From assembly GCF_000520595.1 (NCBI RefSeq), contig NZ_KI914978.1:55324-101075 (forward strand): a DNA stretch of 45,752 bases. The letters are read 5' to 3'. Of this stretch, positions 9,431 through 11,799 are shown in pieces. Both the position numbers and the translations under genes were made by a program. The notes under the pieces are model-generated. The model ran no database searches. It was not told the origin of the DNA and worked only from the letters and a program-made list of their open reading frames with translations. Origin of the DNA: Arthrobacter sp. H5 (lineage in GTDB: Bacteria > Actinomycetota > Actinomycetes > Actinomycetales > Micrococcaceae). Position 1 is the stretch's first letter, and each line of letters opens with the position of its first letter.

Positions 9431-9679
9431 CTAGGCGGAGGGCCTGTAGGGGTCAACCGGTCGGTTGTCTTCGTCACGGTCGACTTTGTCGACCAGATCG
9501 GAGGCCTTGGACTGCGCGGAGTCGATCTTGCCGGAATACTTGCCACCGGTCTTGCTGTCAACAAAATTGCCAGCGTGCCCGATGCCGTCCTTGATTTTCT
9601 CCGAATGCTCGCCCACCAGTCCGGCTGCCTTGCCCTTCAGGACTTCGGCCTTGCCTTTGAGCCCGTCAAATACAGACAC
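9431..9679 (-). CDS. MT0933/Rv0909-type antitoxin-like protein
   Basis: This 82-residue, highly charged, Lys/Gly/Asp-rich protein resembles the MT0933 antitoxin family, named for mycobacterial Rv0909. The diagnostic centre is GHAGNFVDSKTGGKYSGKIDSAQSKASDLVD-like, split here around FVDSKTGG and KYSGKID. The GTG at 9679 has an excellent GGGAGGTG ribosome binding site; the longer upstream reading frame is not conserved. Rv0909 is paired with the toxin Rv0910, but no toxin gene adjoins this copy. The family also resembles CsbD-like stress proteins in composition, so a stress role is an alternative. Confidence 0.72.
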   Translation of the reverse strand: MSVFDGLKGKAEVLKGKAAGLVGEHSEKIKDGIGHAGNFVDSKTGGKYSGKIDSAQSKASDLVDKVDRDEDNRPVDPYRPSA

Positions 9680-9699
9680 AGGCACCTCCCTTCTTATCC

Positions 9700-9716
9700 G
9701 GGAACCTGTTGTTCCC
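9700..9716. repeat. Inverted repeat in the antitoxin-like gene leader
   Basis: GGGAAC and GTTCCC form a perfect 6-bp inverted repeat with 5-nt spacing, located 21 nt upstream of the GTG start. It could be an operator or a leader hairpin. The spacing does not fit the actinobacterial SOS box (GAAC-N4-GTTC). Confidence 0.5.
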
Positions 9717-9850
9717 TCCGCATTACATCTTAGGCGCCGGTGGTTACGAGTGGCCATGGTTTCACCTGTGATTCTGCCGAGAGCGCTGCCTGCGCCGCCG
9801 GATTGCCGCCCGCGCGCAGATGTGACAGCCTTAATGGAGCCAGAAGGCAC

Positions 9851-9892
9851 CCGGACGAGGTGCGCCGTACCCGATCAGCGAAAAGACGGCGC
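9851..9892 (+). promoter_or_regulatory. Guanidine-III (ykkC-III) riboswitch
   Basis: The segment reproduces the ykkC-III/guanidine-III aptamer almost base for base. It begins CCGGACGAGG, continues TGCGCCGTACCCG, and ends AAAAGACGGCGC. The two halves of the pseudoknot are perfectly complementary: GCGCCGT (9862-9868) with ACGGCGC (9886-9892). The P1 pairing CGG/CCG is kept, with one mismatch (A in place of the usual final G). The aptamer ends 2 nt before the Shine-Dalgarno AGGAG (9895-9899) of the downstream SMR exporter gene, so translational control by guanidinium is likely. Target and location fit the known class exactly. Confidence 0.92.
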
Positions 9893-9909
9893 TCAGGAGT
9901 GAGACTGTC

Positions 9910-10224
9910 ATGGCATGGATTGTGCTTGTTGTATCTGGCGTACTCGAGGCCGTCTGGGCCACCGCGTTGGGGAAATCTGAGGGTTTTACCAAGCTGTGGC
10001 CCAGCGTGATCTTCGGTATCGGGTTGATTCTGAGCATGGCTGGTCTGGCCTGGTCGATGCGGACCCTGCCGGTTGGCACCTCTTACGCCGTGTGGGTGGG
10101 GATCGGAGCAGCATTGACCGTGGCCTACGCGATGATCTTCGACGGCGAGGCCGCTTCGCTGATTAAGGTGCTGCTGGTACTTGGGATTGTGGCATGCGTT
10201 GTGGGACTCAAGCTCATTCACTAG
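9910..10224 (+). CDS. gdx: Guanidinium exporter, SMR family (Gdx/SugE type)
   Basis: This 104-residue protein has four transmembrane helices, as in all small multidrug resistance transporters. It works as a dual-topology dimer that exchanges guanidinium for protons. The conserved Glu13 sits in GVLEAVWA, and LPVGTSYAVWVGIGA around 70-84 is the signature of the Gdx/SugE branch rather than the EmrE/Qac drug pumps. The guanidine-III riboswitch directly upstream supports guanidinium as substrate. It is a single-gene unit between the antitoxin-like gene and the tRNA cluster. The ribosome binding site is AGGAG with 10-nt spacing to ATG. Confidence 0.93.
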   Translation: MAWIVLVVSGVLEAVWATALGKSEGFTKLWPSVIFGIGLILSMAGLAWSMRTLPVGTSYAVWVGIGAALTVAYAMIFDGEAASLIKVLLVLGIVACVVGLKLIH

Positions 10225-10276
10225 GAGCGGCCCACGGGCGGTGGATCATTTCCCGCAGCGGCTGATCTTTTTCGGA

Positions 10277-10349
10277 GCGGACGACGGGATTCGAACCCGC
10301 GACATCCACCTTGGCAAGGTGGTGCTCTAGCCAGCTGAGCTACGTCCGC
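10277..10349 (-). tRNA. tRNA-Gly (GCC), copy 2
   Basis: A 73-nt cloverleaf on the minus strand with acceptor GCGGACG/CGTCCGC, the T-loop GGTTCGAATCC and the anticodon loop TTGCCAA (GCC). It is base-identical to the copy at 10620-10692 and lies after an internal hairpin that follows tRNA-Val. CCA is not encoded. Confidence 0.96.
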
Positions 10350-10352
10350 GAA

Positions 10353-10376
10353 AAAGCGCCTCTTACGAGGCGCTTT
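10353..10376 (-). terminator. Terminator between tRNA-Val and second tRNA-Gly
   Basis: A perfect 10-bp stem, AAAGCGCCTC/GAGGCGCTTT, with a 4-nt loop. On the minus strand it is followed by a run of T residues, the form of an intrinsic terminator just after tRNA-Val. Confidence 0.75.
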
Positions 10377-10380
10377 GAGT

Positions 10381-10451
10381 GGGCGATACTGGGATCGAAC
10401 CAGTGACCTCTTCCGTGTCAGGGAAGCGCGCTACCGCTGCGCCAATCGCCC
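10381..10451 (-). tRNA. tRNA-Val (GAC)
   Basis: A 71-nt cloverleaf on the minus strand with acceptor GGGCGAT/ATCGCCC, anticodon loop CTGACAC (GAC), and T-arm ACTGG-TTCGATC-CCAGT. It is third in the minus-strand order Gly-Cys-Val. Confidence 0.95.
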
Positions 10452-10493
10452 GGAAACCGTGTGTCAAACCTCGGCTGCCTTCACCTTACTGGA

Positions 10494-10563
10494 GGTGGGG
10501 ACGGGATTCGAACCCGCGTAAACGGCTTTGCAGGCCGCTGCCTCGCCTCTCGGCCACCCCACC
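10494..10563 (-). tRNA. tRNA-Cys (GCA)
   Basis: A cloverleaf of about 70 nt on the minus strand with acceptor GGTGGGG/CCCCACC, anticodon loop CTGCAAA (GCA), and T-arm GCGGGTTCGAATCCCGT. It is the middle member of the Gly-Cys-Val cluster that is conserved in actinobacteria. Confidence 0.93.
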
Positions 10564-10619
10564 GTGACCCCGATAATGCAGGACCGCTGGCCGATACCAG
10601 CTCATACAGTGACTTGCGA

Positions 10620-10692
10620 GCGGACGACGGGATTCGAACCCGCGACATCCACCTTGGCAAGGTGGTGCTCTAGCCAGCTGAGCTACGTCCGC
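10620..10692 (-). tRNA. tRNA-Gly (GCC), copy 1
   Basis: A 73-nt cloverleaf identical to 10277-10349, with anticodon GCC in the loop TTGCCAA. It is the first gene of the minus-strand tRNA transcript, about 75 nt from the predicted promoter. Confidence 0.96.
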
Positions 10693-10905: not shown

Positions 10906-11799
10906 ATGACTGAGCCTCTGCTTGCCCACGCCACCGAGCACGGGCGGATGTATTCCCGTTCCGTCACCGAGCCGCCTGCGGTGCCGTCCATCACCACGGT
11001 GATCTCGCAGGCGCCTTCACCGTCGTCACTCAACGGCTGGTTTGGCTATATGGCCGCGAACTCACTTGCGCAGGACACACGGCTGCCGGCATCCATCGGT
11101 GATCCAGCCAAGCTTCGAAGCGTCATTCAGGAAGCCTCGAGGGCAGCGGACCGTTACCGGGACAGCGCTGCGGAGCGCGGCACCCGGGTGCACTTCTACT
11201 GTGAGCAGGTGGCATTGCGGGCTTTGGACCGTGCGCACCTGGTCGAGGAGGCCAGGCTGGCCCTGTCCGAACACGGGGAAGAGGACTTCGCGTTTCGGTT
11301 CGACGAATGGTGGGACCTCTACCAGGTGCGGCCCATCGCGCCGGAGATCACAGTCTGGAACGCGGAACTGGGGTATGCGGGCACATTGGACCTCGTGGCA
11401 ACCATCGGTGGGCGGCTGTGCATTCTGGACTTCAAGACTAAGGGCACCGATCGCGATGGCGGTGTCAAACAAATGGATGACAAGGTGGTCATGCAACTGG
11501 TGGCCGGCATGAAGGCACAGGAGAGTCTGGTTGACCCGCATGCGGGAACCTGGGAGCCCTGGCGCTCCGGAAATGATCTCATTCTGCTGGGTGTGGCTGT
11601 TGGCCAGACCGAAGTGCGGGCGATGAGGGCCAACCCCGAGGTCCTCAGGCACCACTGGTCCAGGTTCTGCGCGCTGAGGCGCTGCTGGGAAGCTGGCATT
11701 GCTGCTTCGGGCGCAGGGCGTGCCCTGCTTGCCGTGCCGCCCCCTCCGCCGCCTGTGGGTACTCATTCCGCCGGACCGGTAACCGCGCACAGCAGCTGA
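10906..11799 (+). CDS. PD-(D/E)XK nuclease-like hypothetical protein
   Basis: This 297-residue protein has no named family that I recognise, but it carries the motif series of the RecB/Cas4-type PD-(D/E)XK fold. It has GTRVH (His96) and E147 in ITVWNAELG. GTLDLV follows, with D162, then ILDFKTK with D175 and K177. These residues are the usual metal-binding and catalytic set. The start region is degenerate and the last 30 residues are a Pro/Ser-rich tail. It stands alone on the plus strand between the tRNA cluster and def, with no helicase or cas gene nearby. It may be a housekeeping DNA-processing nuclease or a degenerate phage-type exonuclease; the role is unknown. Confidence 0.72.
   Translation: MTEPLLAHATEHGRMYSRSVTEPPAVPSITTVISQAPSPSSLNGWFGYMAANSLAQDTRLPASIGDPAKLRSVIQEASRAADRYRDSAAERGTRVHFYCEQVALRALDRAHLVEEARLALSEHGEEDFAFRFDEWWDLYQVRPIAPEITVWNAELGYAGTLDLVATIGGRLCILDFKTKGTDRDGGVKQMDDKVVMQLVAGMKAQESLVDPHAGTWEPWRSGNDLILLGVAVGQTEVRAMRANPEVLRHHWSRFCALRRCWEAGIAASGAGRALLAVPPPPPPVGTHSAGPVTAHSS

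Follow-up and report, generated by a model that had tools for sequence, protein, structure and literature searches.

The results indicate, with a probability of about 0.9, that in Arthrobacter sp. H5 a class III guanidine riboswitch turns on the gene of a single guanidinium/proton antiporter. The riboswitch is located in the window, that is, the whole 45,752-nt stretch of DNA that was analysed, taken from a 4.3-Mb assembly of 104 contigs with a completeness of 99.84%. In the proposed mechanism, transcription would start just upstream of a short hairpin, P0. With guanidinium bound in its core, the 42-nt aptamer would fold as an H-type pseudoknot; the bound fold would hold the P2 helix and keep the 3' strand of the aptamer off the region of the Shine-Dalgarno (SD) sequence and the start codon, so that the ribosome could initiate on the Gdx gene. 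Without the ligand, the GACGG of the 3' strand could pair with the CUGUC just before the AUG, and the SD sequence would be trapped in a hairpin loop. We infer ligand binding, the direction of the switch, the translational level of control and guanidinium as the exported substrate, and mRNA stability may contribute to the regulation.

A covariance-model search with Rfam cmscan bore out the guanidine-III aptamer that the original prediction had placed here. The RF01763 (Guanidine-III) model matched positions 9823–9895 (+) with 60.9 bits (E = 2.9e-10), compared with a gathering score of 36, and the alignment covered the complete model (1–67); the part thought to be transcribed, 9838–9895, scored 53.5 bits alone. 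The aptamer itself occupies 9851–9892 (+) and is numbered here after the T. fusca crystal structure (PMC5696562), with nt 1 at 9851. Its P2 helix (nt 12–18 with 35–41, positions 9862–9868 with 9886–9892) contained seven standard pairs out of seven, as expected of the perfect pseudoknot described earlier. In P1 (nt 1–4 with 21–24, positions 9851–9854 with 9871–9874), three of the four pairs were of the Watson-Crick type and the outer one, 9851/9874, was C-A, which is the single mismatch that had been reported. The core nucleotides named in PMC5696562 (A5, C6, G7, A8, G17, A19, and C20) were all kept. The SD sequence AGGAG was found at 9895–9899 (+), 2 nt after the end of P2 at 9892, again as predicted, and the ATG of the gene of the small multidrug resistance (SMR) family was at 9910.

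The leaders of relatives were used for comparison, with 104 of 111 loci parsed: all 30 family loci, 73 of the 80 named loci, and the H5 window. The search pattern imposed G(G/A)ACGA, UACC, and the P2 pairs 16-37 to 18-35; therefore, the constancy of the ACGA/UACC core and of these pairs, all of which are present in the H5 window, is no evidence. Outside the pattern, P1 pair 2 was standard in 104 of 104 leaders (C-G in 102, U-A in 2), as was P2 pair 15-38, which was represented by three pair types. P1 pair 1 was standard in 100 of 104, two of which have U-A instead of C-G. The outer part of P2 was loose: seven standard pairs were present in 47 of the 99 distinct leaders, full pairing was reached only with nt 13 bulged in 37, and neither way in 15 (L003–L112).

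Two sequence changes distinguish the H5 aptamer, and both were read from a draft assembly, so that a sequencing error is possible. The outer P1 position lacked a standard pair in four of the 104 parsed leaders, H5 included, and the combination CCGG/CCGA was present in the H5 window only. The J strand had the form CGAAAAG, with A replacing the usual C, likewise in four of 104 leaders including H5; the earlier account was silent on this A, as well as on the hairpin 5' of P1 and on the promoter. Together, the outer C-A pair and the C-to-A change could mean that the riboswitch has decayed, with a lowered affinity and gdx constitutively on or off, and the uniqueness of CCGG/CCGA among the leaders agrees with that. 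However, the aptamer retains the core nucleotides of PMC5696562 and every pair of P2; besides H5, three leaders have CGAAAAG and three lack a standard outer pair in P1, and the score of the match is well over the cut-off. We consider such decay very improbable. The P1 A, which according to the earlier account may weaken affinity, is in the outermost pair of the helix.

The region upstream of the aptamer pointed to a promoter and to a transcript start different from what the Rfam alignment would imply. A de novo search of the 60 nt upstream in the 99 distinct leaders returned an extended -10 motif, TGNNANNNT, with a log-likelihood of 239 versus 18–33 for four shuffled sets, for which fewer restarts were used. 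It lay 15–28 nt from nt 1 in 91 of the 99 leaders. In the H5 window, the motif reads GTGACAGCCTTA at 9822–9833 (+), with the hexamer CAGCCT at 9826–9831. A -35-like TTGCCG at 9803–9808 (+), 17 nt before the -10 hexamer, agreed in five of six positions with TTGCCC, one of two reference hexamers (the second being TTGACA) and itself picked once the leaders had been read. The TTG at -35 spacing was present in 26 of 91 leaders versus 6.0 expected from shuffling. A generic sigma-70 scan of 9650–10300 found no promoter.

Downstream of the -10 box, the short hairpin P0 (GCC/GGC, 9839–9848, +) abuts P1. A hairpin with 3 bp (the minimum searched) or more was present near P1 and past the -10 box in 91 of 91 leaders, with a mean score of 13.35 versus 6.99 (sd 0.37) in 100 shuffles. 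According to a hand count of 34 short leaders, the arms were GCC/GGC in 22, GUC/GAC in 10, GCA/UGC in 1, and neither in 1. The Rfam alignment of the presumably transcribed part picked the same P0 arms with a modest posterior. The hairpin itself is already included in the Rfam model, and what is revised here is its register and the start site. The 5' stem of the full Rfam alignment, GCCUU/AAGGC (9828–9832/9844–9848), which was also preferred in the H5 window by a hairpin search on 30 nt carried out without the promoter limit, was rejected: its 5' arm falls within or right beside the -10 box, and close relatives favour GCC/GGC. Because the conserved extended -10 box overlaps this Rfam arm, the transcript start was placed at P0. 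Judging from the position of the motif, P0 probably forms the 5' end of the transcript or lies close to it, and RNA for binding assays should begin at about 9837 given this corrected probable start. A long-range pairing seen in minimum-energy folds, UGACAG (9823–9828) with CUGUCA (9905–9910), was also discarded, as the upstream strand of this pairing runs into the -10 box and is probably not transcribed.

The gene behind the riboswitch (9910–10224, +) encodes a 104-aa SMR protein that matched PF00893 with 78.5 bits (gathering score 23.7). According to the alignment, residues E13, W16, S42, Y59, and W62 are kept; W16 is conserved in Gdx proteins and is Gly or Ala in Qac proteins (PMC7695847). 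Among solved structures, the best match was 6wk5 (E = 5.1e-21, 78 bits), to which 8vxu is near-identical, and the EmrE-type chains came next with about half the score (EmrE, 39 bits). We take entry 6wk5 to be Gdx-Clo. This assignment fits PMC7695847. The NCBIfam SugE model NF008512 gave 94.4, below its cut-off of 126; therefore, the protein was classed as Gdx-like and not as a SugE equivalog. The closest named relatives were proteins of Arthrobacter strains, with 85–88% identity.

Many Qac models of NCBIfam also matched the protein at E < 1e-8, as might be the case if it were a multidrug pump of the Qac/EmrE type that is merely induced by guanidine via the riboswitch. However, the listed Qac and EmrE scores were all under their own cut-offs and under the SugE score, W16 is present at the position of the Gly or Ala of Qac proteins, and 6wk5 scored 78 bits against 39 for EmrE. 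A multidrug pump is thus highly improbable at this locus. From its sequence, the protein looks like a Gdx-type transporter, which is the best reading, and the exported substrate is most likely guanidinium. Both points had been put forward in the original prediction. The Gdx/SugE signatures were recovered as the five Gdx residues, although the SugE cut-off was missed, and the preference for guanidinium over drugs is backed by these residues and by 6wk5 as the nearest solved structure. In addition, the arrangement of riboswitch and gene supports guanidinium as the substrate of the H5 transporter.

RF01763 had a single match in the H5 genome, in which the guanidine-I and guanidine-II models had no match, and the single SMR gene found there with PF00893 was the gene behind the riboswitch. 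Its position is that of a single gene. Downstream, the first features detected were four tRNA genes on the opposite strand, Gly-GCC, Val-GAC, Cys-GCA, and Gly-GCC, at 10274–10692 (-), directly past gdx; the two tRNA-Gly copies were identical over the Rfam match. An ORF of 297 aa at 10906–11799 (+) had no Pfam or NCBIfam match at 0.001. It contains a DFKTK stretch that is perhaps reminiscent of PD-(D/E)XK nucleases. Divergent from the riboswitch, an 84-aa protein is encoded at 9431–9685 (-), with a match to PF14013 (MT0933-like antitoxin protein) of 65.2 bits.

The original prediction had also assumed translational control without an expression platform. The first part is plausible, since no terminator-like site was found in 9650–10300 and the SD sequence is adjacent to the aptamer; the second part is doubtful, as a competing hairpin was predicted and complementarity next to the start codon was enriched in relatives. 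The candidate OFF-state hairpin, at 9885–9909 (+), would pair GACGG (9885–9889) with CUGUC (9905–9909) and CUCA (9892–9895) with UGAG (9900–9903), leaving GGAG (9896–9899) in the tetraloop; it uses nt 34–38 of the aptamer (GACGG) and excludes P2. Pairing of nt 34–38 with the 5-mer ahead of the start was possible in 31 of 100 leaders versus 5.9 (sd 2.2) after shuffling. The computed energy of this hairpin was -7.9 kcal/mol versus -11.7 kcal/mol for P2 as a plain hairpin; P2 is thus the more stable, and the computed energies predict no equilibrium switch. The particular hairpin is put forward tentatively and offers a specific pairing for tests of the OFF state.

When the aptamer was treated as folded, the cost of opening the SD-AUG region in the H5 window fell from 7.53 to 5.39 kcal/mol, a relief that was reached by 8 of 300 spacer shuffles. 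The mean relief over 95 leaders was 2.61 kcal/mol versus 1.37 kcal/mol with shuffled tails (Wilcoxon p = 0.0009, in a test that ignores shared ancestry). The relief exceeded 2 kcal/mol in 49 of the 95 leaders, compared with 40% of shuffles, and in 13 of the 95 the change was in the opposite direction by more than 0.5 kcal/mol. In L020 and L024, close relatives that share CUGUC before the AUG, it amounted to 0.1–0.2 kcal/mol, and L033 showed the opposite direction. The unpaired probability of the SD sequence did not rise with the aptamer folded, going from 0.79 to 0.61 in the H5 window and, on average over 99 leaders, from 0.59 to 0.50. In the unliganded ensemble, shuffling the tails made the SD sequence less open (0.48 vs. 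0.59). As another candidate OFF pairing, the four nucleotides ahead of nt 1 could pair with the region of nt 8–16 in 43 of 99 leaders, which is a raw count with no shuffle control.

These unpaired probabilities do not support a simple occlusion of the SD sequence and would suit a riboswitch that acts mainly on mRNA stability, in which the bound pseudoknot, situated near the 5' end after P0, blocks a 5'-scanning RNase and translation is a by-product. A role of guanidine-III in mRNA stability is given in a 2025 review that cites Richards and Belasco (2021), and the conserved promoter motif would leave no more than about 15 nt between the transcript start and P1 of the H5 aptamer. However, the computed opening energy drops on folding of the aptamer, and more than in the shuffles. 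In addition, 98 of 104 leaders have an SD-like motif, searched with a permissive pattern, that begins 0–4 nt past the aptamer and its P2, a proximity that control of stability alone would not need. Mainly stability-based control is therefore an unlikely alternative in our judgement, and a translational step, which is predicted or suggested for guanidine-III (PMC12186494, PMC5696562), is fairly probable. The same spacing counts show that tight coupling of aptamer and SD sequence is the rule in the group and not something special to the H5 site.

A broader version of the translational reading was derived from the start codons of the relatives. The riboswitches that control gdx might carry a built-in start-codon platform, in which a GUC element lying directly before the start, in many cases extended by additional complementary nucleotides, would pair in the OFF state with the conserved GAC segments of the aptamer (nt 4–9, 29–34, or 34–38). 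Among 92 distinct leaders, 41 had GUC immediately before the start, versus 5 of 242 other SD-preceded ORF starts of the same loci, the latter having been called mechanically by a caller that includes false ORFs. In this first sample, at least five contiguous pairs between the last 8 nt and nt 4–9 or 29–38 were formed in 32 of 92 leaders versus 10 of 237 other starts, the core-pairing counts being based on consensus cores. In the post-SD stretch, at least five pairs were found in 32 of 89 leaders versus 10.5 (sd 2.9) after shuffling, and in 16 of 89 with reversed cores. The second sample was drawn from the class and comprised 128 loci among the matches listed, of which 115 were parsed and 13 were not; five had no start, and 106 leaders were distinct and new. 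Here, GUC was flush against the start in 49 of 106, the last 8 nt formed at least five pairs in 30 of 106, and the post-SD stretch did so in 34 of 92 versus 10.9 (sd 2.7) after shuffling and 9 of 92 with reversed cores. For both samples together, the GUC count was 90 of 198 leaders. Several statistics had been tried on the first sample, and the second repeated the core-pairing test with the start-codon rule being new; all tests of the element ignore shared ancestry.

When the second sample was split by the start rule, GUC was present at 47 of 90 SMR-like starts and 2 of 16 others. Three of these 16 were SMR genes with a GTG start that the rule had missed, each preceded by GTC; the corrected figures are thus closer to 50 of 93 for SMR and 2 of 13 for non-SMR starts, and some of the 13 may be false starts. 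That few non-SMR genes behind the riboswitch carry GUC counts against the start-codon platform. For SMR homologues that have no aptamer immediately upstream, GUC was found at 4 of 29 distinct starts; 38 had been fetched, three were dropped for a GGACGA upstream, and the rest matched others exactly over the 22 nt preceding the start. Rfam detected RF01763 in just one of the three dropped homologues, L278; L250 and L275, with neither riboswitch nor GUC, therefore belong in the count, which becomes about 4 of 31. The starts of L255 and L258 are doubtful, and in tandem second SMR genes, for which the Rfam rescan covered L275 and L278, the spacers are constrained by the preceding gene. The start-proximal element showed no covariation with nt 37 (Fisher p = 0.74). 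Start hexamers swapped between leaders scored the same (p = 0.36), with no leader-specific match; the match is thus to conserved segments. The platform remains a doubtful proposal, and if it is true, the pocket that binds the ligand is itself in competition for the translation start.

A sample of 197 genomes of the family contained 110 with RF01763, and one of 394 genomes of the class contained 175; SMR relatives (E up to 1e-6) were present in 129 of the 197 family genomes. In the best 80 named loci, which had been fetched by protein alone, the aptamer was found by pattern in 73 and by Rfam also in L075. L055, L083, L086, L089, L099, and L109 had no RF01763 match at the gathering score in the DNA examined (349 nt upstream for L089). 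Several other arrangements were observed. In six leaders of the second sample (L113, L117, L119, L121, L122, and L129), the aptamer precedes a protein that is no SMR and has NAEGAWAQQ close to its start. In L148, L171, and L212, the aptamer precedes a membrane-like protein, non-SMR by its start, with QIAGSLLILAAFA or QVAGSLLILAAFA near the start. Two adjacent SMR genes are located behind one riboswitch in some Micrococcaceae (L263, L267; e.g., G058 and G172), unlike in H5. In L242 and L243, leaders of an SMR homologue in another genus, ACAAGACGG resembles the 3' part of the aptamer about 20 nt ahead of the start; a search with RF01763 at E up to 1 gave no match in these leaders, which perhaps hold a degenerate aptamer.

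The H5 transporter and 6wk5, presumably Gdx-Clo, aligned without gaps over residues 1–102 with 41% identity and share E13, W16, S42, Y59, and W62, whereas H5 has V63 for T63 and, in the third loop region, FDGEAAS for FFKEPLT. The H5 riboswitch is an ordinary member of an already described class, which is known, mainly from Actinobacteria, in front of SMR (emrE/sugE) genes (PMC2864571, PMC7736828, PMC12186494). For this class, the proposal has been made that the bound ligand makes competing structures less stable and frees the ribosome binding site, and a Kd of 60 micromolar is quoted for one member (PMC5696562). The H5 aptamer differs from that of T. fusca (5NWQ, PMC5696562) in the outer C-A pair of P1, in the J-strand A for C, in length (42 nt vs. 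41 nt), and in its distance from the SD sequence, which is 2 nt versus the 16 nt stated for T. fusca. At the same time, the two share the core ACGA/A19/C20, the P1 and P2 helices of the H-type pseudoknot, and the position upstream of an SMR gene in an actinobacterial host.
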